Virus record (IMG/VR): IMGVR_UViG_3300034019_000517
Coordinates: 1 to 64,000 of that record
Strand: one strand, 5' to 3'
From: a virus
DNA: 64,000 bases
Position 1 is the stretch's first letter. Every line of letters starts with the position of its first letter. Below the pieces are notes generated by a model. It searched no databases. It was not told the DNA's origin and saw only the letters and a program-made list of their open reading frames with translations. This document shows positions 2,874 through 41,627 of this stretch, piece after piece. The position numbers and the translations under genes are program-made.

Positions 2874-2874
2874 T

Positions 2875-3514: not shown

Positions 3515-3522
3515 TAAGTACA

Positions 3523-3717
3523 ATGGAACAAATTCAATTTACTGAATCTCAAATTCAAGTAGTTAGAGATTTAGAACACGCTGCAGAAGAACGTGGGATA
3601 TGGAAAGGCATAGGACTAACAATTATATTGTTTTTAGCCATATTAATTGCGTTTTGGTTAGTTGCTCATTTAGCACAATACATTAATTCTGAACAACCTT
3701 TTATCCAATTAAGGTGA
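3523..3717 (+). CDS. Small single-span membrane protein (64 residues)
   Basis: There is an acidic N-terminal helix (E-x-A-A-E-E), then one long hydrophobic segment at about residues 29-50 (I-G-L-T-I-I-L-F-L-A-I-L-I-A-F-W-L-V). A short C-terminal tail follows. No signal-peptide cleavage site is apparent. Its TGA overlaps the GTG start of DNA polymerase by three bases. No family is recognised. Confidence 0.6.
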   Translation: MEQIQFTESQIQVVRDLEHAAEERGIWKGIGLTIILFLAILIAFWLVAHLAQYINSEQPFIQLR

Positions 3718-11398: not shown

Positions 11399-11594
11399 CC
11401 TATCAACAGTATTTACTGTTGATTTGAACGGTGTACGTTATTGGTTAGATCCTACTTTGCCTATAGAAGATAAATTTCCCCAGATTGTTATGGAAAGATT
11501 AACAACTGGGGATTTTTGTTTATGGCAAATTGACACATTGAATGATATTGATCGTGACAATCAATATGTTATTGTTAAACAAAAAACATTATGA
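11373..11594 (+). CDS. Hypothetical protein (73 residues), TTG start
   Basis: This frame opens with TTG at 11373, 26 bases inside the previous gene. It includes V-D-L-N-G-V-R-Y-W-L-D-P and G-D-F-C-L-W-Q-I-D-T-L-N-D. No ATG is present near the start, so TTG or a slightly later start is needed. It ends four bases into the next gene (ATGA). Function is unknown. Confidence 0.5.
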   Translation: MKKHTRRFNLSTVFTVDLNGVRYWLDPTLPIEDKFPQIVMERLTTGDFCLWQIDTLNDIDRDNQYVIVKQKTL

Positions 11595-15475: not shown

Positions 15476-15485
15476 ACTTAACACT

Positions 15486-21593: not shown

Positions 21594-24500
21594 CTATTCA
21601 AGTATAGAATCCGCTTGAGTTTTCCACTTGTTAACGTTGTTTACTATCGGAAATGCCTTATAAGTATTACGTTGTACTTTTTCCCAGTCAGTATCTTCTG
21701 TAAACAATTCTTCCTGTGTTGTATCAAAGGCCTCTACAAAGTCAATGACCGTTCTAAATACAGGTAGTGGATTTTTTATAATTTGCTCAAACGTAGAAGG
21801 ATTTATATAAAAGTATAAATCTGCAGCAACACGAGAAAACTGGTTCATCATCATATGATAAGCAGCTTTAGTTACTTCGTCTTCATCATCTTCAAAAGCA
21901 TATTTTAATCCCCACATAAATGCAGTAAGTAATGCTAAGAAAGCTAATTCAGATAAGTTCTTTCTCATATTTTCAATAGCTGTATCTACATTAAATTCTC
22001 CACCTTCTGCAGCAGATTTACGTATAAGCTCAAACGCTTTATCAGGATCGTTCATATAAAGTAACTGACGGCCCAGGGTAAACAAAGACCTTAACGCTCC
22101 TATATCTCCGTATGTTGCCCAACGTCCTCTTACTACACGTCCTAGTTGTTCATCCATATCTTCTTTTTCAAAGCGAGAAGCAATACCTTCCGGCATCCAA
22201 CTTCTGAACTGCATAAGCATTTGTCCTAGTATGGTCTTCTTAATCAAAATAGGAGAGTTAGGATCATAGTTACCGTGGATACGTTTAATTAACTGTATCA
22301 TCTTATTTCTGAAAGCTTTAAAGTCTTTCATCTCAGTATCTATGTCTCCGCTCCAGTTTTCATTTAAACCAAACTCTGTAGCATTCCATTCTCCATCTGC
22401 GTTAAATGCCTCAAAAAGCGTACGTTCTTTACCGTTTACGTCAGTTACTTTTTCATGTAGTAACATAGCAACCATGGTCATACCTTGTACAAAATATTCA
22501 GAACGTTTTTGTAGTTCATATGGGGCCCACTTAGAAAACCAAGTTCTACGTTTTGAAGACTTATTATATGCAGCTTCGTTTACTTCAAATAACACGTCAA
22601 ACTTATCCATTAGTGCGGCTACCTTTTTAGCTACATCTGATGTTAATGGAATTCCGGTATTGTCTTGTACTGATTTACCGCTTGCATGTAACATAATTGT
22701 CCAGGCTTTCATCATTGAAGAGTTGTCAAAATCTCTACGTCCATTAGCATGGATAAAGTTTGCCATAACTCCAAATCCGATATTACTGAAAGCACTGAAG
22801 ATATTGTATCCCATTCCTTTTAACTGAGTTACTTGCATAAGTTGTCTCAGTGCTTTAGAATGAGTATATAAACGATAATCCAGAGTTTTCATCTGTTCTT
22901 CAAGCTCTTCTTTCTTTTCTAAGTAGTCAGCTAAACTCATAGAATCTTTAGACTGTTCAAGCTCTACTAATTCTCGTACGATTGCTTCATGTAGTTTTTT
23001 CATTTCAGGATCAGCAAACAATTTCTGATTAGTCTGTCCTATTTCTACGTTTCTATTACCGTATAAGCTAGCATCTATTAAGTACTGAAGACTTTTGTTT
23101 AGATTTTCCAGACCTTTAGACTTGGTAAAGAACTTCTTTTTTGTTTTATCGTAGATATTTTTACCGCCGGCATCTACTACAACTTCAGCAGCATTTTCTA
23201 CAACACGCTTAGTTAATAGAGATATATCTTCTACTACACTCTTATGCTGATAGTTATACGCCATATGACCGAATAATCCTAAGATGTCAAACAAATCTTT
23301 AGATTGCATTTCATCCGCTGCATTTACTTCTTGTACGTGTTTACTATCTACACCTGACACTAATCTATTTTCTACAACTACTTTTTTAGTTATAGGGTTT
23401 AAGTAGTTAAACGGTACTTCTTCAACTGTACGGTCACCAATAGTTAATGCGCTACCAGTAATAGGAGCAGTTCCTAATCCAAAAATTGCTTCACTCTTTA
23501 AATGTTGCATACCTATTTTAGTTCCACCTTCTAGGAAGCTTTTTAAAAGATCTTTACGAACCTTAGGTAGGAAGTTATCATAGATACGATTTTTATGCTT
23601 TAAATGAGCTGGAATTAAGTCCATAAACATAGAAAGCTTATCTCTGTACCAGTTATAAAACTCTTTTAGATCAGGATCATTTTGAATAGTAGTCCAGTTA
23701 GAATCAAAGTACTTAGTATTAGCTGAGTTTCTAGGAGCTATTACAAGACGGCTATAATTCTTACGATCGTGCATAATATCAGATACCTGGTCATTCATGA
23801 TTTCATCAAATGCTGCGAATGGAGAATTACGTTCTTTCCATTGTAATAAAGCTTCACTTTTCATACTATCAGTAAATGAAGAATCTAAAGTTTGCTGAAT
23901 ATCTAAGTTTAACTTAATGCTAGCAAGCTGTTTCCAATAGTGCTCTACTTTAGATTTAGCTTGAGCAACTAATTCTGTAGCTCTTTCTGGACCTACTTCT
24001 TGCTCGAGATATTTTAAGTACTCATCTTTTTGGGCTGCATCGTATAGTTTATAGATGTCAATAATAATAGCCTCAGTATTAGCAAATCGTCTAAATTGAG
24101 CAATCTTACCTTTTACTTTATGTAGTTTATTACTACCGGCTGCAAAAGCTACCGAGCGTTTAAGTGCACTAACATCTTTATGCCATTGAACACTTTCTAA
24201 CGTAACCATATTACCAGTCCATTCTCCTTCATGACGTTGTAAAAAGACTTCGAATTTATGTTTACGATAGCCTTCGGTACCCATAAACCACGTACGTTTG
24301 TCTTCTATTTCTTTAAGGAGCGCTGCAGATTTATAGTTTGCATCCCTAGCTGTACTTTGAAGTACTTTGGCTAAGAAAGAGGTTACTGGGTTACCTTGTC
24401 TTGAAGCATCTAATCCATAGGCAGCACCTGTGGAAATGTCTTTAAGTTGTTTAAGCCCAGAAGGCGGCATATTAGCACTAGTTTCATTAGTAATACGGTT

Positions 24501-27500
24501 AGCTACTAATGTTCTAGCTATCTTTTCCCACTTAATCTCATTAGCAGTTATTCTATTTTCAAGTAAATCCAACGTACGTGCAAACTCATCATTAGGTGTT
24601 TCAATATCTAGGTTGAATAATGCAGTACGAATGTTTTTCCATGCATCCAGAGTCTCAATAATTTGTTGTAGTTGGCTATCGGTAAGATGGCTTCTATTCA
24701 ACATATTTTCTACCCAGGTTAAACTACGTCCTACGGCTTCTAGTATTTCTGCAATAGTAGGAGTCTTATTAAGATTATTAATTTCAGCTTCGAGTCTGGT
24801 AATTTCTAGTTCATACACAGCAGCATTTTTCTGATCTTTTAATGCTGATTTTTTTAACTGATGTATACGTGTTCTAATACGTCCAATAATCTCTTTGTAC
24901 GTTGAATCTTGATTACTACTTATTGCAAACTCGCTGTCTTTAAACTGGTTATCGTGTTCAGTAGTTTTGCTTGATAACGAGTATACTTTTTTAGTAGTTC
25001 TTGTAAATGCAGTATACTTTGCACGGTTTATGGTTTTGTAGTCTGTCTCAAGTCGTGTAGTTACTTTACCATTAACGACTACATTTTTCTTCATCTTTTC
25101 TAAATTGTTCTCATCTACGAATACATGGGTTATATCTTGACCTTGTACTTTATGTGCAGTAGTAGCATATGAATAGTCCATGTTACGTGTAAGAGTTTTT
25201 GTAGTATTATTTTTTGTTCTTAACACAGTATCTGTAAGAATAATAATACTACCATGCAAATCCCAAAATGCATCCCAGTTTTTAGTCAATTTAGCATTAG
25301 CACGTGCTTCTTCTAGTAATTCAGAATACATTACTATGTTATCTGGTTTTGTATAGTCTAAGACAAAGAATTTTTTATTTACGTCTTCAAACATTACTGT
25401 ATACCCAGTTAATCCAGTATGATGTGTATCTGGTTTAACGTAGTTAATACGTTGATAACTAGAATTTGGCATAACTACATCATAACCTTTTTTAAAGGAT
25501 GCGTATGTAAATAATACTTCACCAACAGAAACTAAATAAGGGTCTGTGGGTCTTAATTTTTTACGCAACCACTTATTATATTGTTCTACTTTAGGATTAG
25601 TAAACGCTATAACTTTTGCATGCAGTGGGTTACTTTGAAATTCTTCAGAACTAAAAGCAGCCATTAATGTATCTTCCCATGCTTGTCTATCTGTTTCAGT
25701 ATCAGAATTAAAAAATACAATTCCTTCTTCTGTATTAGGGTTAACCATAGTAGCATGAGTAAATGCATCTTTAGTAGATTCTAGATCATTCCTAATAGCA
25801 GTTACAACATCTAAGATAGGATTACTATTATTTTGACGTTCAACTATAGTTAGTTGATAACTATTAGGCAGTATATAAGACACAGGAGATTCATCTTCTC
25901 CAGGAGGGGGTAACTGTGCCGGATCTCCTATAAATATAATTTTAAGATTAGTATGCTTTTTCATTTCTAAAAGCAGGAATTTTAAAAGGTCTTTATTCAC
26001 CATAGAATACTCATCTATAATAAGAATATCCAATTTTGGCAATAAAGGAGGATTTTTAGCATCGAATTTTATATTATCGATATCAAATTCATCTGCTTTA
26101 TAATCTGGGGCTAATCCTAAAATTGAAGCTAAAGTCGTACCAGGAAACTGAGTAGTTTGCTTAACTTTATTTGTAGCAGCATGTGAAATAGCACTAACTG
26201 CTATTTTTTTACGTCTGCCTTTTAAAACTTCTTTAATGATAGTAGTTTTACCAGTTCCTGCATATCCTTTTAGTACAAATGTTCTTTGATCTGGGGTAGC
26301 ATCAGAAGGTATAACTTTATCTAGAAATACATTGATAATACTAAGAGCTTCTACTTGTTGAACATTCAGTGTAATTTGTTTTCCAGACTCTAATTTAACT
26401 ACGTGTTTAGGTGCTTCTACTACAGGACTATCGTTTACAGGAGGGCCTACAGGTGCTGTTTTTTTCCCAGGGCCCATTTCAGTAGAGTCTTTTTTGTCAA
26501 TAAGCGAAAGTATATCATGAATAGATGAATATAGAACTGTGTTGTCAATATTCTTCCCTAATTTAGCTGCAATTGTTTCAATGTATTTAGTAAATAACTC
26601 TACAATACGTTCCCATAATGTCTGAGTGCTATTAAACGGCATTTCAGCTAATACTTTTTGAAAATCTTCATTAGTCATAACTCCGGTTATAAACTCATGA
26701 ATATTAAACAACGGGTACACAGTTTTAAAGTAAGGCTCATCTGTAGGAAACTTAGGAGTTCCAGTCTCAGAATCTCTTTGTATCTCCGCTTCCATAATTA
26801 ACTTAGTTACTTTAGCATACTTTGGATCTTTAAGCAGTTTTTGACGTGCTATATCCATTAAAGTATATAAGTTTCTAATGAGTTTTTTATCGTACTCTGA
26901 TAATGGAGGCAGGCTTTCTAGATACTCTTTAAATACTTTATCCCTTTTACTTCTAAAAAATCCTCTACCTTTTTTATGTTCAAACTCGTATTGGTATAAT
27001 TTAATAGAACTTAGCCCATGGAACAACTCATGAAAGACTGATTCTGCATAATGTTCTAAGCTTCTAATCTTAGGTTCATTAATAAAGATATCCATCTTAA
27101 CTTCATTTGTACTAGTGTACAGACCCCAACTAGCTGTAGAAATGAATTCAGGGTTATTGATAGTACTGAATGTAGTTTTTTTAGCAAATATGTCTTTAAA
27201 AAACTCCATTGTCTCTATTAACAACATGTTACTAGGAGTAGGAATTTTACTTTCAATCTCACTAAATATTTTTGGTAATGCAGATTCTAAAGTTTCCTGT
27301 TCAGCAAGATCTGGTATAAACTTAAGTTTCGGCTTATTGTCAAATGTGAGTAGTACATTTGTGGAACCAGCTGGGCTTTCAGGATTTGGATTTAACGTAT
27401 CATCAGTAGTTTTTGTAGGTGCAGCAATTTTAACTACAGGAACTAAACTCTGTGGAATATTTACTTTTGGATTATCAGCTAAAAGACTTGGTTGATAGTC

Positions 27501-30500
27501 TGTTAGAGTTAAATTACCATCGTACTCACTTATAAAAGAATTACCTAATACAGGAATTCTTTTGTAAATTATATCGTTGTTCACATCTACACCTTGACGT
27601 TCGTACAAAATCCATGTGTTGTTCTGTAGATTCCTAACTGATAAATAGGTAGGAACCACAGTTCCTTGCACCCCAGGGATAGTTAATTTTAATCTATCTG
27701 CTGATTTAGGGAAGGTATCTTTTTCCGGATTAGTAAGACGAATTACGCTTTGATCTGCAGTAACTAAAGATACTTGATTAGTGATATTCACATCTAACTG
27801 AATAGCTTCTTCTGGATTATGCTGAAAGAATTGCTTTAATAAAACTTGTGGATCGTCTTCAGTGTTTTCAAATTCTTTTAGTTTCGCAACGACCCCAGTT
27901 TCAATTAATACTTGAACAGGAGCGTATTTTAAGAAGTTAAGAGCATTTTGAACTCCTCCGGTAACTATTAGATATGTTACTAAATCTAACGCTAGTTCTT
28001 TTTGTATAGGGTCATTAGATACTAATAAATCCACAAAAGCTTTAATGTTATCGCTTTCATCGATGTTAGTAGATGTAGCAGCATAATAAGATACGGTATC
28101 TATATCATTTAATTTACCGGCAAATTTTGGGTTTAAACGTTGTAAAAGAATGTTACGTTTACCCCATTCTGTTGTTTTAGCTTGATGCAAACGTTTAGCC
28201 AGAGATTGGTCTCCAAACAGTAATTGCGTTCTTACAGCGTTTACATTTGGAATAGTTTTAGAAAACCCATAGGATTTATATGCTCGTGCTAATAGTCTTA
28301 ATTTATCACTATTTACATGAGGTTCTCCGGTATTAAACTGATATACTCTACTTAAGCTTTTAAAGAATGGAGTTTCATAGAAGAACAATGGATTAAATAA
28401 AGACAAAGCCAAACGAGGCCCAAGGCGCAATGCTGTACCTATTTCTGTTTCAGTATCTATTTCTGTCACAGGGTCTGTATTATAAATAAGGGCCTTAGAG
28501 TTAGCAATTAATGGGTTATCTAGTACTGTGTCAACTAATCCATTTCTATATACGGCATCAAATAAATCTTGGCCGGCACCTTTAGAATCTGTATTTATAA
28601 CACTTTGAATTCTACTGAGTTCGTCTCCGTACGCAGATAATTCACTGAATAAAGCTAGTACTTTTAACTGATTAGTAATTTGTTCATCTGTGGGGTTTTC
28701 TAGAACTAACATATCTTTTAGCTCTTGAGGAGAAAACGATTTGTTTTCCATACCATCAGAATCAACAACTCCGTTACTTAATTTTTCAATCCAACGTTTT
28801 GTTACTCTGTAAAACGCTTCATTTTCAAAATTACTGGTTTCACTACGAATTACTGTACTACGAAGTTTTTGTAGTTCATCTAAAAATTCTTTTACAACAG
28901 GTTGAGTTAAGAAGTACGCAATGTAATCTGGTGAAAGAATAGTTCCGTTATCAGTTTCTAATAAAGCTAGAACGATAGCTACTTTAAACGTATCGCTGTT
29001 AAGATTCAATTTATCTAACAATTGATCTTTAGCATTATCTACAGCTGCGGACTGAATAGCAGAAATAATCTGTTGTTTTCTTATTGTAACTCCATTATAT
29101 TCTACAGTTCCAACACCTGAGATGTTACTCATTAACAATTCGCCGGCCGGTCCTTTAAATCTAAAGTAACGCTTACTATCTCCAGCTTTTAAGTACATGT
29201 TTTTATCCTGGATAATAGCATTAAAGGTTGAAGCCAAAGACATTACAGCTACTCCTTTTTTACCATATCTGTTAGAAATAAATCCTACTTGTTGTCCGCG
29301 ACGAGTAAAGAACCCGCCACTTTCTGTGTCTTGTTGGATTTCAGATACTTCTTTAGCTAAGTCTTGTAAGAATGGTTGATCTAAAGGTTCAACAATTCTA
29401 GAAAGCATTTTAGGATTAGTTAATACACTTAAGTGTATATCTACGTATAAGTTTTGAAGTTCTTTAGGATCTTCTCCTACTACAGTTGTTTTATTAGTTA
29501 CTGCAGCTGAAGTTACTTTAGAAAACTTACCGTCTTTATAAGTATGATGGTACTGATATACATAGAGTTTATCTACGTCAAAGTCAGCACCCATTTGAGT
29601 AGTAATACCGTTTGGTACTATAATCAAATTACCCATAGACTCTGGTAAAAAACCTACAACTTCCATTGGTAACATTGATGAATGCCCTTGGTTAGGAATA
29701 CGTGCACCGACCATAGTAAGAAGTTCTGCAGGTACCTTTTCAGGATCTAGTACAGTTCTTCCATCAGGAAGTTTCTTAGTTAATAGTGATACATCTACTA
29801 GGTTACCATTATCATCTCTAAAGAAAGAAGGAACTAATACTTGAGCTCCTAATAACTTAGTTTTATTGTGGTTATTTCTTACATACTGGAGACCTTTAGA
29901 GAAATCAAAACCTTCGACAAATATGATACTGCTTTGGTCAGCTGCTTCTAGTTCATTCCATTCTTTCATACCCTGGAGCCCTATACCGGCCGAACCTTGT
30001 ACATATGAAAGTCCTTTCATCTTTTGATGTAGAATACGATTAGTAATCAAAGACATCAACATACTTTCTAGTTTAGCTGCAGATGCGTTGAATCCTAGAG
30101 GAATAATAAACCCAGTTTTATCTGCGTTTAATTGTAAACTCATGATATCGTTTATAGGGTATTTTCTACCCTTGGCCTCTTCTACTAGTGCTTTTTGAAG
30201 CTTAGTTATATCCTGAATACGTAAAACTCCTTCGTCATTAACTACGCCTAAATCATCGAATAACTTATCAGCACCCATAGACATTAAACGTTGCTTAATG
30301 CCTTCCTTTAAAGCCTTTAATTCATGTCCTACATAGTTTTCTTTTTGACCAGGAAGAACGAACTTAGACATATTAAGAATACCCTCAAATAATAGTTTAT
30401 TCATTTGACTAACTGTTACAATCTTCTGTTTATCAGGATCATAAGGGTTTTCTTGCTGTATTCTAAATCCACTTCTTGGAAGTTCAATAATAGAGTTACT

Positions 30501-33500: not shown

Positions 33501-36500
33501 ACTCTTAGTTAGTTTAACTTCTTGTTCAGAAGTAAGAGTGAGTGCAGAAGTAGATGGAGTAGAAGGAGCTACTGGGGTTTTATCAACTGGTTTAGGTTGA
33601 CGTTCGTTTAGCAATTCTGCAAGTGCTCTAGCTTGAGAAATATCTGTATTAGCAAATTTATCTGTTAGTACTTTTCCTGCAGCTTTAGTACGCAAATCAG
33701 TTTCAAGGTCTGGGTTTTCATCTAAGTAAAGAGCCCATAAAGCTTTATACTCTGTCCAACTTTGTTCTTTAGTTATTGAACGTAAAGGCGCTTTTCCTTT
33801 ACCTAATTTCCAATCATTGCCTTGAGCTCTATAACCTTTTACATCTAGTTGGTATGCTTCTTCTATAGTACGACCATCTTTTAATTTAGCAAACAAAGCA
33901 CTGAATCGTTTATCTCCAGCAGAAGATACTTCATATGAATTAGCATCTGTTCTAGCCCATGTAATTAAAGGTTGTGAAGTAGATTTAGGTTGATTAGTTG
34001 ATTTAGATAAAGATGCTTTAGTTAAAGAATAAACATCTTTAATAGCTTGTATAGACTCAGGAGTCATTTTTCCATTATCTTGTCTACTTCCAATTCCAGC
34101 AAAATTTTTATGTAATATAGGTACAGTTGATTTTTCAAAAGTAGTTCCATTCCATTTGTACCACTGGTTAGTTTTAGTATCAAAAACATTAACTTCTTTA
34201 CCGTTAGCGATGGCCATTTCTACAGCATATCCGGTACCACCATCTACTGTGGTTCTTTTTGCATTTACTTTATAACCTTTTGAATTAATTTCATTTGGAT
34301 ATACAATAGGAGCAATAGCTATGACTTGTGTAGAGTTTTTAACTTGAAACCAGTTTCTACCTAATAAATTTGCATATTTATCTACCCAGGGTCTACCTAA
34401 TACTTTAGCAGCTTCTTTTGCATGAGAAATTCCTTCGGCTAATTGTTCGTTGGTAAGCTCTTTATTACCTAAAGGTGTTTTATTATTAGACCAATAGTGA
34501 TTGTGATTATTAAACCCAAAAGTTCTACCTATTGCATCAAACATACTATCAGCTCCAACAGCACCTCCACTGTGGTTTACAAAAGAATCTGTAGTATCTT
34601 GCGAATTTGAATCTGGTAGTAACTCAATATATTTTAGGTCTCTGTCTTTATTTAAAACTACTTCATTCCAAGTATTACCATATTCATCTGTAATTGGTTT
34701 AGGATTATATCCTTGTTTTTCAAGAACTCTTTTTACTTGATTTTCATAGAAATTATAAATAGGTTTTAAAGCTCCAAATCCTTCAGGGCCTTCTATTCTA
34801 GCAAGTTCAGCTTTAATTTGGGTTATTTCAGTGTTTATGTTTTCGTTAGAAGTTAAAAACTGTAGATTTTCTTTGTATGCGTTTAATACATCTTCATTTG
34901 TAGGACGAGCTACTTTAAATTCACCTTCATTAGTTATTTTTTGTTTTGCCCAAACTCCTCCTCTTTTACTATAATCTACTCTTTCTCCTTTGTCATTTTT
35001 AATAGAAAAATCTTTTACTGTAATTTCTTCAAAAGAAGCAACAGATTGTTTTTCAATATTAGTTTGGAGCTCTTGTTCAAGTTGTTTAAGCCTAGTCTCT
35101 TTCTGCTTCTTAAACTCTTCCAATGTAGTATGTCCTTCTATTTTAGAAGCTGTATTACCACTAGGAAATAATATTTTTTCATACCCTTGTTTAACGGCAT
35201 CTTGAATGATTGAACGTATGAAGAATCCTACCCAATTGTTGTCGGTGTTTAGGAGTTGTAAGAATTGATTTTCTTTAGTATAATCTTGAGTTTCATTTAA
35301 GTAAGCTAAGTAAGCTTTATCGTAATCTTCTTGGGAATCAAAATTATGTGGATCAGGAACTTCTAACCCTTGAACCTCACTTACTAACTCCGTTTTATTT
35401 CTACCCTTCTGAAACAAATCAGATTGTATTTCTTGTACTCGGAGGGTTTTACCAGCCACTCTTTCATCTCTAGTAGCAGTTTCAAATTCTTTTCTCTGTT
35501 GCTCTACTAACTGATTTGCTTCTTCATTAGTTTTTCCTTCATACTCAGTTAAATGATAAAAATATCCATCTAAATAATCTTCAATTGTAGTAGATCCTAT
35601 AAACCCATCAAAATCATCTGTTTGTAATTGTCCTCCTAAAGGAAGTTGATTACCTGTTTTTTCGAGTTTATCATCCACTCTAACCCACCCAATTCCATTG
35701 TTAGTACTAAACTGAGCATGTCCTTTAATTGAAGGCATTATCAACGGAGTTCTGAATTCTCTTTCTCTGTAGTTAGTTCCTCCAGGTGCTGCCATGTTAG
35801 CGTAATACTGAGTTGGTGCTCCTTTTGGTATTATCTCACCTTCACTATCATACTCAGGATCAGTAGAATCATAACTATAAGTTTGTGCAGAAGTATTAAT
35901 ATCAACCACAAAATTATAATTAAGTAACAACTCTGTTATTAATTGCTCACGATCTGTAGTACCTAAGTTTAATAAAATATTTTTTTGCTCTTTAGGAACT
36001 TCTAATTCAGTAAGTATTTTATCTAATGACCAATTATTTTTAGCACCTTTATTGAATACCTGTACTCCTTTAGGTGACATTAAAAGATTCAGTGCTCTAA
36101 GCCTAAAATCAATTTTATTTTCACGAGTATTCAAACTCTGTTCAATAGCATCAATAGGATCAAACATGAATTCCATATCCATATCTGAGGCATCTTTTAA
36201 TGAGTCAAACAGATCATTAGGATTTGTTATAGAATCCGGTTCAGGTTTAGTTTCTGTAGGTTGTTGTGATTCTAAAGCAGCTAGTTCTGCATCATATTTA
36301 GCAATTATTTTTTGTTGTGCTTTTATTACTCTTTCTTTAGATTCTTTTTCTCTGTCAAATTTATCAGATTGATAAAATTCTAATAATTCTTTTTCTATAG
36401 GTATTCTTTCTTGTAACCATTCTTTTCTAAATAAATCCACATACTCTTTAATTTTACCTTGTTCAAATTTTTCTTGATTTTCAATTCCTTTAATAGATTC

Positions 36501-39500
36501 AGCTTGTTCTATCAAATCAATAAGTTCTTTAGGTAAATACTTTTCTACCGATTTTCTACCTTGTTCTTTATTAATTATTAAAGCATTGCCTGTTTCAGGG
36601 TCAGTTGCTTGAAATTCTCCATTTTTTTGTTTAGGAAAAATATCCCATTTTTTGCCTGTAAATTGAACAAGAACTTCATATTTATCTCCTTTTATTTTTA
36701 TTCTATAGCCTCCAGATTGGTCGGGAGGATAAATATTTAATACTTTTTGTAATCCTAATTCTTGTTTTCTTTTTTCTATATCAGCTTTTTTAGCTTCTAT
36801 ATCTAAACTACTTGACTGAGATTGTTTAGCTAATTCAGCGTTTCTTAATGCATCGTATTTGGCGTTGATTTTGTTTAAATAGTTTTTATTTGCTTGTTCT
36901 AATTTTTCTTTTCTTTCTTTTAACCAGTTGTCAGCTTGTTCTTTGTTTTTGAACGATGCTGTTCTTACAATAGGTGCTTGAATCATTTTATCATTAGAAT
37001 CAAATTTTGTTTCTTGAAGAACTTCTACTACTACTTCATAAGGATTATTGTTATATTCTTCTTGCTCTTTTTTTGATAATTTATCAAATTCTTCTTTTGA
37101 TAATGTAGCTAAAGGAATATCATTAGACTCTACAATAGCTTTATAACCAGTATTAAATTTATCACCTACATTTAAACCTTTTCTATTGGTTCTTGTTTTT
37201 GTACTTATTCTATCAGTATTTAATTCTTCTTGTCTACTATCTTCAATCTCTTTTAGTTTAGCTTCTATAGCTGAAATGTTAGGTTGAACTGATGATTTTG
37301 ATTTTAGTTTAGTAATACTTTCTTCATATGCTGCAATTAAATCAAAAGCCTTTCTAGGTGCATTTAGTGTACTTGAAATTTCATCTCCTAATTTACCATC
37401 TCCATTATTTTGTAACCAACTAATATATGTTCCTTTAGTTAGATCTTCTGTAAACTTAGGAATACCATTAACTTCTGCAAAGTAATCCAATAAAGCTTGA
37501 GTTACTGCAGTTCTGGTATTTGATTGAGTCTCTGGAAAAGAATCGCGTTTTCTTTGATTTGTAGGAATAGGAGTAGATTCAACCTGACTAGATTGTGTTG
37601 GAACGTTCGTTGGAGTACTTTCAACTGGGGCAGGAGTAGTTTTAATTGCAGTTTTAGTTAATTGATCTCCAATAACTTCTACAAAATCAAAAGTAATAAC
37701 TGGTTGATCGAAAAAATTATATTCTTGAGTTTCAGAGATATACGTTTCCTTAACCTTAGTTAAACTATTATTGACTATGAAGTTTCTATAAGAGCCGTAT
37801 TTTTGAACTTTAAGCTCTCCGTTATGTAAATATATAAACGAATAAGGATCTTTTGATTGTAGACGTCCTAATTGAATCTGGAGGGGTTTAGAACCAAAGA
37901 GTGTTTTAATGAATGAAGGATCACTAATAGAAGCAGCTGTTAATTTTTGAGCTTTAGTTCCTTTTCTACCAATGTAAATACCGCCTTCGGTAATATTCAT
38001 ATAGAATCTATTACCTGGGATGTTGTCACCGTTTAATAGATCTTGGAAGCTTTCTCCTGACATTCTAGATACACTCATGTATTCGCCTATGAAATCTCTT
38101 AGGCCGGCAAGTGTAGATATGTCATGAGAAGTTAGTTTATAAACCTCTTTTTGGACTGCTTTATCATTCGTTAAGTGTGCATTTAACGCATATTGAATGG
38201 TATCTAATACAGCACCATTCTTAGTTTTTTCCAGAGTAGTTGTAACAAAAGGTACAGCTGCGAATTTACCCTCTACCGGAGTAGGCAGTACAATTGCTGG
38301 TGTACCATCGAATATTTTAGACCCATCTGTAACAATATTCTTAGTAGAACTTGTAGAAGGTCCTAAAAACGGAACTCCGGCTTTATAGATAACTATTTCA
38401 TATTCAGAATGGTTAGTTACTCTAGTAGCTAGAATATCTGGGGTTTTAGTTTGATATAATTTACCAATTGACTTAAACTTAATAGAAAACTCAGGAAGGT
38501 TATCCATGTTTGCTAAAAGCCATTTTCTTAAAGCTAAAGCCAATTCAGCTTGTTTTTTAGGATGCCCAGGATCTTCGTCAGCTACGTTAGCATAACTTAC
38601 TGTACCATCCGGATTTGTTACTTGTTGCAATATCCATGTAACATCATGAAGATAACCAATTTTGTTACCTTCTTCATCCATAATTTTAATAGGAATACGT
38701 CCAACTTCGTTTTTTAAATCGTTGTAAGTTTCACGTACTCCTTGTGAGTTTACTACATTATATTCAGTATCTATAGCAAGAGTTACAGTATCTCCTTTTT
38801 GGAAAAATATAGAAGACTCTATAAGTTTAAATAGCCCAGGATGTTTAGTATCAGAATCAGAGACTTTGTAAATAGGAATTTTACCGCGTTTATTTACGGT
38901 ACCTTTTACAAACTTCCACGCCCTTGATAAATAAGCTAATGCAGTTGCAGCCGGTACTAACTTTTCTCCTACGAAAAGTATATTACCATTCTCTTCATAT
39001 GCTCCATCTTCTTGTAGTTTATTACTTACAATTTCATCGAACATGTATGAAGTCATATCTACTGTATCTGGGTCAGGTTCATTAGAAGTATTTATTTCTG
39101 CAGATCCTGTGACTGTTGGGTCTCCGGGGGTAGTTGTGTCGGTATCGGTTTTACCTTTTTCTTCATCGGTATCTTCGACCGGCGTTTCAGTAGTTGCTGA
39201 GTCTTGCGGGGTTTCTGGTTTTGGTTCCTCTTGGGTTGATGTCGTTGCATTCTTTGCATTAGCTATTTCTTCTTCAGCTTTACGTTTAGCTTCAGCTGCA
39301 TCTGCGGCTTCTTTAGCTTTTTTAGCAGCTTCTTCTTGGAGTTTTCTCCAACCTAAAATAGTTTCAATATATTCTTCTCGCCCTTCTTTGCTTAAATGCT
39401 TAGTATAAGCTGAATTTGCAGTATTATAGCTATGGCGTAACTCTGCTAGTTTATTTTCATAGTCTTGTACTTCTTGTTCTTCAAATACAGACTCTTTGAT

Positions 39501-41627
39501 TAACTCATTATATTGTTCTGCAGTTAAACCTACTCCATGGATTTTCTTAGCTTCCTCTTGTTTAGCATCTAAAGCTTTTAAAAGACGTTCTGCTTCTTTA
39601 TTTGCATTGCTGAAAATGTATTCAATACGTCCTTTTACATAATCTTTAAAAGCTACATTCGGAACTACTTCAACTCCGTTTACAAAGTGTGGAGGAATTT
39701 CTCCGTATTTATTAGCAAAACGTTGTCTAACAATAGGATCGCTTAAATCTGCTTCCTCTAGTTCTTTAAGCTTACGTTCTTCTTGTTCTAGTAAAGATTT
39801 TTGTGCTTGTAGCTTAGTTCCTAATTCTCGTAAATCTTTTAGCTCTTTAGAATCAATCCCACGAGCCCGCATGCTTTTAAAGTTCTCATTTCTAATACGT
39901 TCTAGCTCTTCTGTAAAAGCCAACATAGTAGTTTCTAAACTGTATTTATTTAGAAATAAGCGAAATGCTTCATTTCCATAACCTGCAAGGTTAGAGTTTA
40001 AATCAGCAAGATCATACTTATCCATAATATCTACATACTTCTTAGATAAGAACTTTATGTCTTTAGCCTTCTGTGCGGCTATTTTCTTGTAGTATAAGTA
40101 AGATTTAGGATCAATATCAAACCCAGCAGCTTTAGCTTCTTCTGGAGACATATTTGCAATGTCTTCAAACTCCTGTGCTAATACCTCTTGATGTCCATTT
40201 ACAAAAGAGTCAAACGCTACTACATTAAATAAATCCTGTGTAGCTTGTTCATACTCTGGGGTATTCTTAGCCTCTTGCATCCTGGTTTGAGCGTCTTGCA
40301 TCTTTTGAAGCTTATTGATTAAATACTCACGTCCTTTATTAAAACGTGTTGTATTCTCTTCAAAATGACTTAAGAATGCCTTAGGATTCATGGCTCCTAA
40401 TACTGTTTGTTGACCAACACCACCAATTGCACCCAAGGCGGCTGCTAAGTGTGTTTCATCTTCTCCCAATGTACGTAATACTCTATCTAAAAAACTTAGT
40501 TGCTGTTCGCCCTCGGTAAGAGTACCTGCGGACTTTTTACCTTGATATTCTCCTTCTCTTTGAGCAATCTGGGTATTTACTTCTTCCCATGCTTCTAACC
40601 CACTTTCACGTAACATCATAGATGCTATCTGTCTTCCTGTACCTGGGGTATCTATACTTTTAAGATACTCCATATAATCAGTACGGTTCATGCCTGCAGG
40701 ACGACGTAACTTAGGATCTATTTTATTATATGCTCCTTTTACTTTAAACAACGGAGCAATACCTGTAAAATTTAAAGCAGTATTAAACGAAGTAGAAAGT
40801 CTTACAGTAGTGGCTGCAGCTTCTGCTGCTTTTTTCTCTGCATCGTGTGCAGTTAGTTCACCGGATTTAACTTTAGCTTGTAATTCTTTAAGTGTACTCT
40901 TATATACATCAGCGCCGGCCATTGCTCCTTCTACATATGCTAATTCTGCAGCAGTAAAAGTTTGAGCACCTGCAGTTAATGCATTTCGCATAGACTTACC
41001 AGCTTTTAAAAATGAAGCCAATGCTCCAGCAGTGCCTTTAGTTAAGGCACCTACTCCCATACCAGTTATTGCAAACTCTCCAATAGATTCAATCAAGTCA
41101 GACCCATGAGAAATCCACCACGCATTATCTCCTAAGTCATATACTTCATTTGGGTTCTCCCTATAAATAGGAAACTGTTCTCTTAACGATTGACGTTGTT
41201 CTTGAGCCCATTCAGTAATTTTGTTATTGTAGTCGTTTCCAACTCCAGAGATGGTTTGAGCTTTTGCTTCTAAATCACCTAAGAATCCTAAGTTTTCTAC
41301 AAGTCCTACTCCTATCCCACCTAGTACATTAGGTACGGCATACGATAGTTGTTCCCCTGTTGTCTGTGCTATCGCTCTTGTTTTATCAAGGGCCTTTATA
41401 CCACCTATAGGTACAAAAACATTATTCAGATAGCTTTTATAGTCATCAGGATTAAACCCTTCAAAAATGTTCGAATTTCGTACAATAGAAGACACACGTT
41501 CGCCCTCAGTACCCATTAAAGAGTTGAGAGGGCGAATAGTTGGTTTTTCTAAAGGTATTGAACTGGGGGTAGTAACGTTTGGGCTTAATGATTGTCTAGG
41601 AAGGATGCGTGGTTTGGGTTGATCCAT
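21594..41627 (-). CDS. Giant multidomain virion polypeptide with RNA polymerase, helicase and protease-like parts (6,677 residues)
   Basis: This is a single uninterrupted 20-kb frame. Likely parts in order are: Ala/Gly-rich helical N-terminus, coiled coils and a disordered Pro/Thr/Glu linker (about 780-880), linker at 1330-1375, polyvalent-type E-I-Q-S-D module (about 1955-2300), SLOG-like fold (2345-2525) and its usual partner domain (2545-2690). Then come the RNA polymerase region with D-F-D-V-D at 4015-4019, H-E-L-F-H at 4866-4870, an SF1 helicase with G-T-G-K-T near 5125, and a long helical C-terminus with a hydrophobic segment near 6560. In crAss-like phages the protein in this slot is the virion RNA polymerase, packaged and ejected to transcribe early genes. 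Fusion of all modules in one chain is exceptional; cleavage at the linkers is possible. The RNA polymerase call is strong, the rest varies. Confidence 0.88.
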   Translation of the reverse strand: MDQPKPRILPRQSLSPNVTTPSSIPLEKPTIRPLNSLMGTEGERVSSIVRNSNIFEGFNPDDYKSYLNNVFVPIGGIKALDKTRAIAQTTGEQLSYAVPNVLGGIGVGLVENLGFLGDLEAKAQTISGVGNDYNNKITEWAQEQRQSLREQFPIYRENPNEVYDLGDNAWWISHGSDLIESIGEFAITGMGVGALTKGTAGALASFLKAGKSMRNALTAGAQTFTAAELAYVEGAMAGADVYKSTLKELQAKVKSGELTAHDAEKKAAEAAATTVRLSTSFNTALNFTGIAPLFKVKGAYNKIDPKLRRPAGMNRTDYMEYLKSIDTPGTGRQIASMMLRESGLEAWEEVNTQIAQREGEYQGKKSAGTLTEGEQQLSFLDRVLRTLGEDETHLAAALGAIGGVGQQTVLGAMNPKAFLSHFEENTTRFNKGREYLINKLQKMQDAQTRMQEAKNTPEYEQATQDLFNVVAFDSFVNGHQEVLAQEFEDIANMSPEEAKAAGFDIDPKSYLYYKKIAAQKAKDIKFLSKKYVDIMDKYDLADLNSNLAGYGNEAFRLFLNKYSLETTMLAFTEELERIRNENFKSMRARGIDSKELKDLRELGTKLQAQKSLLEQEERKLKELEEADLSDPIVRQRFANKYGEIPPHFVNGVEVVPNVAFKDYVKGRIEYIFSNANKEAERLLKALDAKQEEAKKIHGVGLTAEQYNELIKESVFEEQEVQDYENKLAELRHSYNTANSAYTKHLSKEGREEYIETILGWRKLQEEAAKKAKEAADAAEAKRKAEEEIANAKNATTSTQEEPKPETPQDSATTETPVEDTDEEKGKTDTDTTTPGDPTVTGSAEINTSNEPDPDTVDMTSYMFDEIVSNKLQEDGAYEENGNILFVGEKLVPAATALAYLSRAWKFVKGTVNKRGKIPIYKVSDSDTKHPGLFKLIESSIFFQKGDTVTLAIDTEYNVVNSQGVRETYNDLKNEVGRIPIKIMDEEGNKIGYLHDVTWILQQVTNPDGTVSYANVADEDPGHPKKQAELALALRKWLLANMDNLPEFSIKFKSIGKLYQTKTPDILATRVTNHSEYEIVIYKAGVPFLGPSTSSTKNIVTDGSKIFDGTPAIVLPTPVEGKFAAVPFVTTTLEKTKNGAVLDTIQYALNAHLTNDKAVQKEVYKLTSHDISTLAGLRDFIGEYMSVSRMSGESFQDLLNGDNIPGNRFYMNITEGGIYIGRKGTKAQKLTAASISDPSFIKTLFGSKPLQIQLGRLQSKDPYSFIYLHNGELKVQKYGSYRNFIVNNSLTKVKETYISETQEYNFFDQPVITFDFVEVIGDQLTKTAIKTTPAPVESTPTNVPTQSSQVESTPIPTNQRKRDSFPETQSNTRTAVTQALLDYFAEVNGIPKFTEDLTKGTYISWLQNNGDGKLGDEISSTLNAPRKAFDLIAAYEESITKLKSKSSVQPNISAIEAKLKEIEDSRQEELNTDRISTKTRTNRKGLNVGDKFNTGYKAIVESNDIPLATLSKEEFDKLSKKEQEEYNNNPYEVVVEVLQETKFDSNDKMIQAPIVRTASFKNKEQADNWLKERKEKLEQANKNYLNKINAKYDALRNAELAKQSQSSSLDIEAKKADIEKRKQELGLQKVLNIYPPDQSGGYRIKIKGDKYEVLVQFTGKKWDIFPKQKNGEFQATDPETGNALIINKEQGRKSVEKYLPKELIDLIEQAESIKGIENQEKFEQGKIKEYVDLFRKEWLQERIPIEKELLEFYQSDKFDREKESKERVIKAQQKIIAKYDAELAALESQQPTETKPEPDSITNPNDLFDSLKDASDMDMEFMFDPIDAIEQSLNTRENKIDFRLRALNLLMSPKGVQVFNKGAKNNWSLDKILTELEVPKEQKNILLNLGTTDREQLITELLLNYNFVVDINTSAQTYSYDSTDPEYDSEGEIIPKGAPTQYYANMAAPGGTNYREREFRTPLIMPSIKGHAQFSTNNGIGWVRVDDKLEKTGNQLPLGGQLQTDDFDGFIGSTTIEDYLDGYFYHLTEYEGKTNEEANQLVEQQRKEFETATRDERVAGKTLRVQEIQSDLFQKGRNKTELVSEVQGLEVPDPHNFDSQEDYDKAYLAYLNETQDYTKENQFLQLLNTDNNWVGFFIRSIIQDAVKQGYEKILFPSGNTASKIEGHTTLEEFKKQKETRLKQLEQELQTNIEKQSVASFEEITVKDFSIKNDKGERVDYSKRGGVWAKQKITNEGEFKVARPTNEDVLNAYKENLQFLTSNENINTEITQIKAELARIEGPEGFGALKPIYNFYENQVKRVLEKQGYNPKPITDEYGNTWNEVVLNKDRDLKYIELLPDSNSQDTTDSFVNHSGGAVGADSMFDAIGRTFGFNNHNHYWSNNKTPLGNKELTNEQLAEGISHAKEAAKVLGRPWVDKYANLLGRNWFQVKNSTQVIAIAPIVYPNEINSKGYKVNAKRTTVDGGTGYAVEMAIANGKEVNVFDTKTNQWYKWNGTTFEKSTVPILHKNFAGIGSRQDNGKMTPESIQAIKDVYSLTKASLSKSTNQPKSTSQPLITWARTDANSYEVSSAGDKRFSALFAKLKDGRTIEEAYQLDVKGYRAQGNDWKLGKGKAPLRSITKEQSWTEYKALWALYLDENPDLETDLRTKAAGKVLTDKFANTDISQARALAELLNERQPKPVDKTPVAPSTPSTSALTLTSEQEVKLTKSVENLYIVDSKTKLPIKGYKQKAIIDGILANVFRLQEQGKTVTEIFDLTFEVYANSKKRWDLLTSGQIDFTKPEVVTRYKAIGIDSLTASPEVLKDAAADMAEEYDLVLRNWKAFVLNTKEELTAIGITMKKGKFNMSTHSEVLTEGELKELEDDFQYEGSSYERVKFNDGAHFEIDQRSTASGKLKLFLRTVVDAEYKPDGTIHKLKNHLGLNVLVPVDIVFNELLSALQGKPHDFASMLLILKTEHALNPRLQQVVEKLEKLDSESLRNQFVTTFSNALAEFLTVKYITRSEGKGSTKTKKTQITPLETNRIGLDRRILSIWIENQKLLPLVRFTAEGAIINQDEVARYNEGLARLASNPNKTNAEINEVLEIIGISLSHESIDHLRKNSVKELNTSFEALFTKGLFSYIGRSMQGLSYIDGEDTEVDANEDQSFTENNPLINDSAFKKLAQIEQRFTKNIYPTSSRGGDGKTKQSFTKPTYLSHTLRRLKDNDKTLIKQLEADPFSKNSIYLARLKESEKFRTSVFKVFYADTIKKQKSSRPGIVRQEMTDIDMEVWVLGLFQNRNQLFDTKGATGKDQRVCYIPWLTISDKTTTPILKTIREELAYVIEDNELSFINETKATIVKLIQAEAHRITEYQKNRHKITPENKINGYDDGGAELFHFFPFLNKDQLENTDGIWSGDDLTLTPAGMEKAVKLVSEHIKTTALKTVERWTQMGIVNLQTKEVFMDASYLNNIPKIQAVSLANKVLYAALDIEFNSIVAYMNMAQLVSGDPALHHKPLKKPSDRNKPSKERIAAAVIEYQKRLAKDIAPGLDGNFDPNERIKYIILKDNVVASYQLAEYTEALGAASGYDKINTTDAQEVTTLAEHLHVMHKYGQLTDEEYKNFKDRIDNAKANKEDVILTPEELTLVMSAVKPVYVESVFDSERSIRRMHYIKSSSFPLIPQLIKNTETKKLLDAMIAAGVDRAAYVSASKLGIMKVTEIHNPDGTVKDNLDLSNSIIELPRSGFRIQQENPYDPDKQKIVTVSQMNKLLFEGILNMSKFVLPGQKENYVGHELKALKEGIKQRLMSMGADKLFDDLGVVNDEGVLRIQDITKLQKALVEEAKGRKYPINDIMSLQLNADKTGFIIPLGFNASAAKLESMLMSLITNRILHQKMKGLSYVQGSAGIGLQGMKEWNELEAADQSSIIFVEGFDFSKGLQYVRNNHNKTKLLGAQVLVPSFFRDDNGNLVDVSLLTKKLPDGRTVLDPEKVPAELLTMVGARIPNQGHSSMLPMEVVGFLPESMGNLIIVPNGITTQMGADFDVDKLYVYQYHHTYKDGKFSKVTSAAVTNKTTVVGEDPKELQNLYVDIHLSVLTNPKMLSRIVEPLDQPFLQDLAKEVSEIQQDTESGGFFTRRGQQVGFISNRYGKKGVAVMSLASTFNAIIQDKNMYLKAGDSKRYFRFKGPAGELLMSNISGVGTVEYNGVTIRKQQIISAIQSAAVDNAKDQLLDKLNLNSDTFKVAIVLALLETDNGTILSPDYIAYFLTQPVVKEFLDELQKLRSTVIRSETSNFENEAFYRVTKRWIEKLSNGVVDSDGMENKSFSPQELKDMLVLENPTDEQITNQLKVLALFSELSAYGDELSRIQSVINTDSKGAGQDLFDAVYRNGLVDTVLDNPLIANSKALIYNTDPVTEIDTETEIGTALRLGPRLALSLFNPLFFYETPFFKSLSRVYQFNTGEPHVNSDKLRLLARAYKSYGFSKTIPNVNAVRTQLLFGDQSLAKRLHQAKTTEWGKRNILLQRLNPKFAGKLNDIDTVSYYAATSTNIDESDNIKAFVDLLVSNDPIQKELALDLVTYLIVTGGVQNALNFLKYAPVQVLIETGVVAKLKEFENTEDDPQVLLKQFFQHNPEEAIQLDVNITNQVSLVTADQSVIRLTNPEKDTFPKSADRLKLTIPGVQGTVVPTYLSVRNLQNNTWILYERQGVDVNNDIIYKRIPVLGNSFISEYDGNLTLTDYQPSLLADNPKVNIPQSLVPVVKIAAPTKTTDDTLNPNPESPAGSTNVLLTFDNKPKLKFIPDLAEQETLESALPKIFSEIESKIPTPSNMLLIETMEFFKDIFAKKTTFSTINNPEFISTASWGLYTSTNEVKMDIFINEPKIRSLEHYAESVFHELFHGLSSIKLYQYEFEHKKGRGFFRSKRDKVFKEYLESLPPLSEYDKKLIRNLYTLMDIARQKLLKDPKYAKVTKLIMEAEIQRDSETGTPKFPTDEPYFKTVYPLFNIHEFITGVMTNEDFQKVLAEMPFNSTQTLWERIVELFTKYIETIAAKLGKNIDNTVLYSSIHDILSLIDKKDSTEMGPGKKTAPVGPPVNDSPVVEAPKHVVKLESGKQITLNVQQVEALSIINVFLDKVIPSDATPDQRTFVLKGYAGTGKTTIIKEVLKGRRKKIAVSAISHAATNKVKQTTQFPGTTLASILGLAPDYKADEFDIDNIKFDAKNPPLLPKLDILIIDEYSMVNKDLLKFLLLEMKKHTNLKIIFIGDPAQLPPPGEDESPVSYILPNSYQLTIVERQNNSNPILDVVTAIRNDLESTKDAFTHATMVNPNTEEGIVFFNSDTETDRQAWEDTLMAAFSSEEFQSNPLHAKVIAFTNPKVEQYNKWLRKKLRPTDPYLVSVGEVLFTYASFKKGYDVVMPNSSYQRINYVKPDTHHTGLTGYTVMFEDVNKKFFVLDYTKPDNIVMYSELLEEARANAKLTKNWDAFWDLHGSIIILTDTVLRTKNNTTKTLTRNMDYSYATTAHKVQGQDITHVFVDENNLEKMKKNVVVNGKVTTRLETDYKTINRAKYTAFTRTTKKVYSLSSKTTEHDNQFKDSEFAISSNQDSTYKEIIGRIRTRIHQLKKSALKDQKNAAVYELEITRLEAEINNLNKTPTIAEILEAVGRSLTWVENMLNRSHLTDSQLQQIIETLDAWKNIRTALFNLDIETPNDEFARTLDLLENRITANEIKWEKIARTLVANRITNETSANMPPSGLKQLKDISTGAAYGLDASRQGNPVTSFLAKVLQSTARDANYKSAALLKEIEDKRTWFMGTEGYRKHKFEVFLQRHEGEWTGNMVTLESVQWHKDVSALKRSVAFAAGSNKLHKVKGKIAQFRRFANTEAIIIDIYKLYDAAQKDEYLKYLEQEVGPERATELVAQAKSKVEHYWKQLASIKLNLDIQQTLDSSFTDSMKSEALLQWKERNSPFAAFDEIMNDQVSDIMHDRKNYSRLVIAPRNSANTKYFDSNWTTIQNDPDLKEFYNWYRDKLSMFMDLIPAHLKHKNRIYDNFLPKVRKDLLKSFLEGGTKIGMQHLKSEAIFGLGTAPITGSALTIGDRTVEEVPFNYLNPITKKVVVENRLVSGVDSKHVQEVNAADEMQSKDLFDILGLFGHMAYNYQHKSVVEDISLLTKRVVENAAEVVVDAGGKNIYDKTKKKFFTKSKGLENLNKSLQYLIDASLYGNRNVEIGQTNQKLFADPEMKKLHEAIVRELVELEQSKDSMSLADYLEKKEELEEQMKTLDYRLYTHSKALRQLMQVTQLKGMGYNIFSAFSNIGFGVMANFIHANGRRDFDNSSMMKAWTIMLHASGKSVQDNTGIPLTSDVAKKVAALMDKFDVLFEVNEAAYNKSSKRRTWFSKWAPYELQKRSEYFVQGMTMVAMLLHEKVTDVNGKERTLFEAFNADGEWNATEFGLNENWSGDIDTEMKDFKAFRNKMIQLIKRIHGNYDPNSPILIKKTILGQMLMQFRSWMPEGIASRFEKEDMDEQLGRVVRGRWATYGDIGALRSLFTLGRQLLYMNDPDKAFELIRKSAAEGGEFNVDTAIENMRKNLSELAFLALLTAFMWGLKYAFEDDEDEVTKAAYHMMMNQFSRVAADLYFYINPSTFEQIIKNPLPVFRTVIDFVEAFDTTQEELFTEDTDWEKVQRNTYKAFPIVNNVNKWKTQADSILE
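24978..26360 (-). other. SF1 (RecD/Pif1-like) helicase segment of the giant polypeptide
   Basis: Residues about 5090-5550. G-Y-A-G-T-G-K-T-T-I at 5121-5130 (Walker A), I-I-D-E-Y-S-M at 5203-5209 (motif II), G-D-P-A-Q-L-P-P (motif III), and Y-A-T-T-A-H-K-V-Q-G-Q near 5490 (motif V/VI region) with Y-T-A-F-T-R-T-T after it. This is the complete motif set of a 5'-3' SF1B DNA helicase. Confidence 0.88.
26538..27230 (-). other. Zincin-like metalloprotease segment of the giant polypeptide
   Basis: Residues about 4800-5030. E-S-V-F-H-E-L-F-H-G (4862-4871) holds an H-E-x-x-H zinc site inside a predicted helix, and Glu residues that could be the third ligand lie downstream. Zincin-like segments have been noted in large crAss-like virion proteins. 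Whether it processes the giant chain, cuts host targets or is inactive cannot be told from sequence. Confidence 0.55.
28878..31430 (-). other. RNA polymerase catalytic region of the giant polypeptide
   Basis: Residues about 3400-4250. The key line is R-I-P-N-Q-G-H-S-S-M (near 3974), then E-V-V-G-F-L-P, and G-A-D-F-D-V-D-K-L-Y at 4013-4022. It matches the D-F-D-x-D metal-binding site of the crAss-like virion RNA polymerase, a two-barrel enzyme related to eukaryotic RNAi polymerases. The three Asp should hold the catalytic Mg. Outer limits are estimates. Confidence 0.8.
33558..33995 (-). other. Conserved phage domain next to SLOG (Y-E-V-S-S-A-G-D-K-R-F type)
   Basis: Residues about 2545-2690. 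It contains Y-E-V-S-S-A-G-D-K-R-F-S-A-L, D-G-R-T-I-E-E-A-Y-Q-L-D-V-K-G-Y-R, then D-W-K-L-G-K-G-K. The end is T-D-K-F-A-N-T-D-I-S-Q-A-R-A-L-A. I recognise this as a block found in many phage proteins, often small stand-alone ones near SLOG proteins. Function unknown. Confidence 0.45.
34053..34595 (-). other. SLOG-like nucleotide-binding fold within the giant polypeptide
   Basis: Residues about 2345-2525. Motifs in order are S-G-G-A-V-G-A-D (2353-2360), R-N-W-F-Q-V-K-N-S-T-Q, V-D-G-G-T-G-Y-A-V-E-M-A, then E-V-N-V-F-D and finally F-A-G-I-G-S-R. These are the glycine-rich phosphate loops of the DprA/SLOG Rossmann-like family. The G-I-G-S-R strand follows the other motifs instead of leading them, as in one phage subgroup. 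SLOG domains bind nucleotides or nucleotide-derived signals; the ligand here is unknown. Confidence 0.6.
34728..35765 (-). other. Polyvalent-protein-type domain within the giant polypeptide
   Basis: Residues about 1955-2300. The core reads L-R-V-Q-E-I-Q-S-D-L-F-Q-K-G-R near 2058-2072, then W-V-G-F-F-I-R-S-I-I-Q-D-A and I-L-F-P-S-G-N-T-A. The same spaced pattern (E-x-Q-S-D-x-x-Q-x-G-R, then a helix with A, then a strand ending in S/T-G) recurs in large polyvalent proteins of phages and conjugative elements. Its biochemical role is unknown to me. Confidence 0.5.

Follow-up and report, generated by a model that had tools for sequence, protein, structure and literature searches.

A crAss-like phage gene that unites the virion RNA polymerase block and captured accessory modules in one reading frame

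We describe a single gene that very probably encodes the complete crAss-like virion transcription machinery in one polypeptide, together with two accessory blocks, and whose product would be injected into the host for early transcription. The window analysed here comprises the first 64,000 nucleotides of IMG/VR virus record IMGVR_UViG_3300034019_000517, a fragment of 66,055 bases known from metagenomics only. From the start of the chain, N and N2 modules precede an accessory block composed of a polyvalent-type domain, a SLOG-type domain and phrog_9995; RNA polymerase, zincin and a Dda-like helicase come next, and a C-terminus like g065 of Cellulophaga phage phi14:2 completes it (Table 1). Four of these parts, the SLOG-like and phrog_9995 domains, a stretch of the polymerase and the helicase, were recognised by PHROG and Pfam scans with the chain cut into overlapping pieces. 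Because the chain matches g067-, g066- and g065-type proteins, it corresponds to these three in one, with additions; judged by homology, the gene is a complete crAss-like virion-RNA-polymerase block in one chain. A preliminary description of the window had read it as a virion RNA polymerase chain of the crAss-like kind into which cargo functions were merged, a reading that is supported by sequence, structure prediction and synteny.

The frame opens with an ATG at 41627 and runs through 6,677 codons on the minus strand without an internal stop, exactly where the preliminary description had placed it. Plus-strand translation across the same stretch is riddled with stops, which excludes chance as the source of the open frame, and codon-position GC shows a coding pattern along the entire frame, high at position 1 and low at position 3. 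The gene occupies 20,034 of the 64,000 bases, nearly one third of the window as had been claimed, and the modules named earlier are present with intact signature motifs (DFDVD, HELFH, Walker A and B, SGGAVGAD). The linkers noticed at that stage are also borne out: two P/T/S-rich stretches are listed in Table 1, a third occupies residues 4727-4766, and residues 1790-1806 (PTETKPEPDSITNPNDL) and about 5045-5075 are short and linker-like.

Table 1. Modules of the giant gene and its upstream neighbours, with positions in the window.
Feature	Residues	Position	Strand	Remark
All-in-one virion transcription polyprotein gene	6,677 residues	21594..41627	minus	
N module	about 42-520	40068..41504	minus	homologous to N-termini of phi14:2 g067 and crAssphage gp45
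P/T/S/E-rich linker	787-862	39042..39269	minus	
N2 module	897-1314	37686..38939	minus	common to many relatives
P/T/S-rich linker	1317-1376	37500..37679	minus	
Accessory PV domain	2060-2326	34650..35450	minus	VQEIQSDLFQ motif
Accessory putative SLOG (DprA/YpsA-like) domain	2348-2536	34020..34586	minus	
Accessory phrog_9995 domain	2555-2680	33588..33965	minus	
R0 module	2811-3199	32031..33197	minus	polymerase N-terminal part, as in phi14:2 g066
RNA polymerase core	3434-4280	28788..31328	minus	homologous to PDB 6VR4
Catalytic DFDVD (DxDxD)	4015-4019	29571..29585	minus	invariant in alignment
R2 module	4291-4727	27447..28757	minus	polymerase C-terminal part
Zincin metallopeptidase-like module	4847-5044	26496..27089	minus	HELFH at 4866; third conserved motif NIHEF
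Accessory SF1 (Dda-like) helicase	5085-5549	24981..26375	minus	between zincin and C-terminal module
C0 and C modules	5584-6671	21615..24878	minus	homologue of phi14:2 g065 ('RNA polymerase associated protein')
837-aa gene, zero Cys		41629..44142	minus	syntenic with the cargo-gene pair before relatives' polymerase block
719-aa gene, zero Cys		44148..46307	minus	likely second cargo protein, by synteny

The surroundings of the gene follow the synteny of named phages, in which a tail protein, two Cys-free proteins, the polymerase block and convergent replication genes succeed one another. The giant gene starts one base beyond the end of the 837-aa gene, and neither of its two upstream neighbours has a PHROG match. 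Its end is convergent with a plus-strand block encoding ribonucleotide reductase, DNA polymerase, a DnaB-type helicase, primase, Sak4 and RIIA/RIIB. The RIIA- and RIIB-like genes (window positions 13283-16466) stand in the early block of a crAss-like phage. The major head protein at the contig end belongs to phrog_11589; TerL, portal and IHF were not identified on the 66-kb contig fragment.

Searched with the window sequence alone (phmmer), the polymerase core matched PDB 6VR4, the virion polymerase of phi14:2, at 5.3e-31, and this was its only match among PDB sequences. An earlier profile match to 6VR4 was set aside in favour of this search, since phi14:2 had been in the profile alignment and the match was therefore circular. 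The core also matches phi14:2 g066, annotated as 'Catalytic RNA polymerase subunit', and its residues 3558-4044 gave a PHROG match to a giant virion protein from Flavobacterium phages. All three aspartates of the catalytic motif (context GADFDVDK) are invariant among eight aligned phages, and the other invariant columns of the polymerase alignment are likewise kept. The T7-like single-subunit polymerase domain that defines the N4 type was not found, the core matching 6VR4 only. As in crAss-like phages, the polymerase is flanked by g067-like and g065-like parts, at the end of the late block and convergent with replication genes; here the flanks are fused to it. In one relative (L053) a stop codon at 11588-11590 splits the catalytic part of the core into adjacent frames of 3,169 and 3,017 aa, and may reflect an intron, readthrough or a sequencing error; the polymerase is whole in most relatives, for example L069.

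Both ends of the chain resemble polymerase-associated proteins. At the N-terminus the match is to crAssphage gp45, whose annotation reads 'RNAP associated protein fused to zincin protease'. The N module has long alpha helices and hydrophobic Gly-rich stretches, and we propose that it would form the leading end during ejection; a fold search with its model (pTM 0.53) matched no solved structure. By sequence, the C-terminus matches phi14:2 g065 as well as crAss001 proteins labelled 'putative RNA-polymerase subunit'. Its final 1,105 residues, modelled in AlphaFold2 with 35 relatives (pLDDT 77, pTM 0.76), matched the predicted structure of phi14:2 g065 (S0A048) at 1.6e-23 with a TMq of 0.62, and other crAss-like proteins too. 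The distant structural matches of this model are 'large polyvalent protein associated' proteins, and no significant fold match was obtained among solved structures in the PDB. Homology of this region to the C2 region of phage N4, considered for its equal size and position, was rejected on hhalign values of 0.1% and 0.7% and the lack of a significant PDB fold match; the model gave a single weak schitovirus match (0.085). A C module of the g065 type also closes, over its last 400 residues (E about 1e-17), a nearly Cys-free 2,748-aa protein of Leptolyngbya phage Lbo-JY46 (L016, 13053-21299), which is preceded by two large Cys-poor genes. A crAss-like ejection block thus occurs in a phage of a cyanobacterium, beyond the phages of Bacteroidota; no polymerase-core match was found there.

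The zincin module retains its HExxH motif in 60 of 71 relatives, and downstream of it lie a conserved E-F, a T and an FQ motif. Against the PDB its profile matched the 'Internal virion protein' 9sfn_G (1.9e-12) and, at the C1 domain, the N4 virion RNA polymerase 11fw_A (4.5e-5); profile-profile comparison with nine N4-like sequences gave 95.7% and 8.7e-9 (hhalign). These profiles make the module a homologue of the one bearing HExxH in the virion polymerase of phage N4, an enzyme that is itself unrelated. A zincin in N4-like polymerases has been reported (Iyer et al., 2017; PMC5512222), and an HExxH domain is visible in the N4 structure (PMC12633501); the present comparison adds the homology to the crAss-type module. 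PCNA matches of the same profile were dismissed as triplicated weak repeats. Two solved phage ejection or internal virion proteins, PDB 9sfn_G and 8vb2_A, match the zincin profile, and such comparisons suggest that the module may be widespread among ejected proteins.

A peptidase-like module within the chain bears on whether the fused product persists as such. The chain might be translated whole and then cut at its linkers, by its own zincin or by a host protease, so that the working units are separate proteins like those of phi14:2 and fusion merely equalises the numbers of the parts. We consider this quite possible while leaning somewhat against it. The retention of HExxH in most relatives ahead of a conserved Glu-containing motif, the position of P/T/S-rich linkers between modules, and gene boundaries whose free shifts across the tree look as though a single chain and several chains served equally well, all speak for it, and zincin processing of polyvalent chains has been proposed (Iyer et al., 2017; PMC5512222). 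However, phages that already encode the parts in separate genes possess the zincin just the same, which rules out self-processing as its sole role, and recombinant full-length N4 vRNAP, which has the related module, has been studied without sign of degradation (PMC12633501).

The accessory modules fall in the block before the polymerase and beside the zincin. The PV domain, which we take to resemble a polyvalent-protein domain, also occurs at other positions within relatives' chains; searches against Pfam and PDB sequences yielded no name for it. The putative SLOG domain has its SGGAVGAD motif at residue 2353 and a moderate PHROG match to phrog_768, DprA-like (3.3e-6, residues 2348-2495). Its NHSGGA and GGT motifs are invariant across 13 relatives, and in 3 of these 13 the SLOG copies match Pfam cpYpsA weakly (0.037). 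For phage SLOG domains, a role in sensing or degrading immune signals of the ADP-ribose type has been proposed (PMC9503650). The phrog_9995 match covers residues 2555-2676; the domain is more than 50% identical to standalone proteins that adjoin the DNA polymerase gene in phiKZ-like jumbo phages, and in N4-like Achromobacter phages. The helicase match spans residues 5074-5551 in the PHROG and Pfam scans, with Walker A (GYAGTGKT) at 5121 and Walker B (LIIDE) at 5202.

With modules of this kind aboard, the chain might instead be a polyvalent effector riding in the virion, with an inactive polymerase and a main role in countering host defence. SLOG, PV, phrog_9995 and helicase are module kinds found in polyvalent proteins, and the distant matches of the C-terminal model point the same way. 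Nevertheless, the DFDVD motif and the other invariant polymerase columns are kept, and the polymerase is conserved over its whole length in about 80-90 loci while the accessory block is present in few; we regard this effector reading as very unlikely.

IMG/VR scans with the polymerase or the tail protein as single sequences found nothing, and a profile scan with the polymerase core gave 80 loci. Nearly all mapped relatives have the order N, N2, R0, R, R2, Zn, C0, C; the helicase precedes the zincin in one clade (L077, L079, L081, L085, L087 and L096). On a polymerase tree of 89 tips (FastTree), the boundary between polymerase and C part is fused in 27 tips and split in 56, with 13 changes, and that between N part and polymerase is fused in 36 and split in 28, with 12 changes. 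The all-in-one state occurs in 14 of the 89 tips with 10 changes, at least nine of them forced by well supported branches. Besides the window, fully fused relatives are L021, L024, L030, L033, L054, L060, L069, L072, L078, L088 and L091, together with L025 and L046, which have cut ends; three of the 14 tips are end-cut, L021 lacking its N-terminus at a contig end and L025 and L046 being open at the C end. L046 has at least 6,841 aa and is open ended, hence at least as long as the window's chain, and L033 is nearly equal to it; a claim that the giant gene holds the length record was therefore abandoned.

The closest relative, L021, lies on a separate contig, has a 47% identical polymerase, and carries polymerase and C-terminal module in one frame. 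The alignment is collinear, but L021 is missing both the 1400-2700 accessory block and the helicase, window residue 5044 being followed in the alignment by 5573; these blocks are therefore insertions relative to L021, or losses in L021. On the polymerase tree the helicase is found in 27 tips with 16 changes, and SLOG in 15 tips with 12 changes, the latter in any of three places: ahead of the polymerase, between it and the zincin, or behind the zincin. An artefactual frame, in which an indel or misjoin in sequencing or assembly merged two or three genes, is extremely improbable: relatives often break at exactly these boundaries, where gaps of a few bases or overlaps mean that one error could join the genes, but L021 has its joint on a different contig, at least 11 more all-in-one contigs are spread over the tree with 10 label changes, and codon-position GC is continuous across the joints, so that the assembly merge named in the preliminary description as a possible refutation fails against the relatives.

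These comparisons also define what is new. The fusion itself is not, since crAss-like phages are already characterised by giant fused polymerases that reach about 6,000 aa (PMC10136315), nor is the gene unique, at least 11-13 further IMG/VR contigs being of the same type; its novelty lies in the completeness of the fusion. In the polymerase tree, the window's neighbours are Flavobacterium FpV4 and environmental phages, and it lies apart from the named gut families. New here is complete fusion with captured modules, recurrent in environmental FpV4-type relatives rather than in named gut families. In two Suoliviridae loci, L014 (cr130_1) and L018 (cr109_1), annotated polymerase-block genes contain dozens of in-frame table-11 stops, as expected for recoded members of this group; recoding is unneeded in the window's phage.

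The giant chain is almost devoid of cysteine. With 1.04% Cys in the other genes of the window, about 69 are expected in 6,677 residues and one is present (P about 6e-29); all-in-one relatives have 0-2 Cys per 4,452-6,841 residues. The purge extends to the captured modules: in-chain helicases have 6 Cys in 12,056 residues (0.05%), whereas their free-standing relatives have 37 in 1,819 (2.03%), a difference (Fisher 4e-27, with related sequences counted as independent) that is nearly absent for W, M and Y. In-chain copies of SLOG and PV have zero Cys. Cys is also lacking in N4 gp50, gp51 and gp52, in T7 gp15 and gp16 and in P22 gp7, gp16 and gp20, T7 gp14 having one; it is absent as well from some scaffold, coat and replication proteins. 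N4-like vRNAPs are known to be Cys-free, which has been explained by ejection through the tail (PMC3915230; PMC4837373), and we therefore offer as new, within a narrow reading of the literature, only the extension of the purge to crAss-type chains and captured modules. The pattern argues strongly, if indirectly, that captured modules travel with the chain, and it supports ejection of the whole chain; the argument is indirect because of the relatedness of the copies and because some scaffold and coat proteins also lack Cys.

What is known of homologous proteins predicts a chain that is packaged, ejected and refolded and then transcribes early genes. It would be made late, packaged in the head beside the portal, and ejected through the tail at least partly unfolded, probably N-terminus first, following the two cargo proteins encoded just upstream. 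In the cytoplasm it would refold and transcribe early phage genes independently of host polymerase. Cleavage by the zincin may yield the working parts, so that genomes with fused and with split genes would supply equivalent products; possible targets are nucleotide immune signals for the SLOG domain and incoming or template DNA for the helicase. We infer all of these steps, from packaging, ejection and unfolding to proteolysis and the activity of every module; what the sequences themselves show is the unbroken frame, core modules that each have homologues, preserved active-site motifs, a recurrent fusion and a loss of Cys from core and captured modules alike. The crAss001 proteins gp47, gp49 and gp50 are virion components by mass spectrometry, and its cargo is thought to exit before the DNA, partly unfolded (PMC10172136). 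Virion detection of phi14:2 g065-g067 by mass spectrometry is stated in the phi14:2 annotation, and polymerase activity of the phi14:2 enzyme is credited to Drobysheva et al. in secondary accounts (PMC7886860; PMC10136315).

More tentatively, and with some doubt, we suggest that crAss-like virion-polymerase chains may be a general delivery vehicle, in which captured enzymes are purged of Cys and carried into the host on a zincin chassis common to N4-type phages with their unrelated polymerase. Captured enzymes would have preferred insertion sites, in front of the polymerase and near the zincin ahead of the C-terminus. If this is right, Cys absence would provide a sequence-only test for phage proteins that enter the host through the tail, and purging of captured modules a cheap predictor of such proteins, immunity-blocking ones included. 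Gene boundaries are free and the core module order is fixed, which suggests that the parts work as one assembly. Should the intact chain be packaged and ejected, roughly 750 kDa of protein would have to pass the phage tail and then refold into a polymerase, which would put tail-ejection models to an extreme test.

As the preliminary description anticipated, split versions of the same modules occur in crAss-like genomes. The phi14:2 block (g067; g066, which is PDB 6VR4; g065) has the window's three parts, arranged and placed in the genome as here, with DFDxD, but in three genes of 1,797, 2,180 and 1,421 aa, where the window has one; PV, SLOG, phrog_9995 and helicase are added in the window. Suoliviridae (cr118_1, cr50_1, cr109_1, cr130_1) and Flavobacterium Fpv/FpV4 phages resemble the window in having a giant polymerase gene (4,287-5,801 aa), but in those we looked at the g065-like protein is a separate downstream gene of 1,381-2,074 aa, whereas it is fused in the window. 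The helicase lies within the polymerase frame in cr118_1 and cr50_1, as here; cr109_1 and cr130_1 likewise have SLOG in the polymerase frame, but after the polymerase rather than before it. In crAssphage (Carjivirus communis) gp44 is annotated as a catalytic subunit fused to an unknown RNAP subunit; unlike in the window, polymerase and C part are fused, the N part is separate, and the zincin closes the N protein gp45.

Outside the crAss-like phages, N4 gp50 has the same general plan of a giant ejected-type chain with an N-terminal region, a polymerase, an HExxH module and a C-terminal region of about 1,100 residues, helical in N4. Gp50 is Cys-free, against one Cys in the window's chain. An HExxH module placed after the polymerase, a trait of the N4 type (Schitoviridae), is found in the window as well, and this shared zincin links the ejection chains of two phage groups with unrelated polymerases: that of N4 has a T7-like single-subunit fold, in contrast to the two-barrel crAss type of the window, and the N4 C-terminal region has no detectable homology to ours (hhalign 0.7%). 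Polyvalent proteins (Iyer et al., 2017) are large multi-enzyme chains delivered with the virion that carry a zincin and accessory enzymes, a make-up that the chain in the window shares, probably together with the delivery; the main text of that survey does not mention crAss phages (PMC5512222). The giant chain shows the features by which such proteins are recognised (more than 2,000 aa, several enzyme domains, late or virion gene association and a zincin), but its backbone is a crAss-type two-barrel polymerase, and it represents an extreme form of a known phage strategy.
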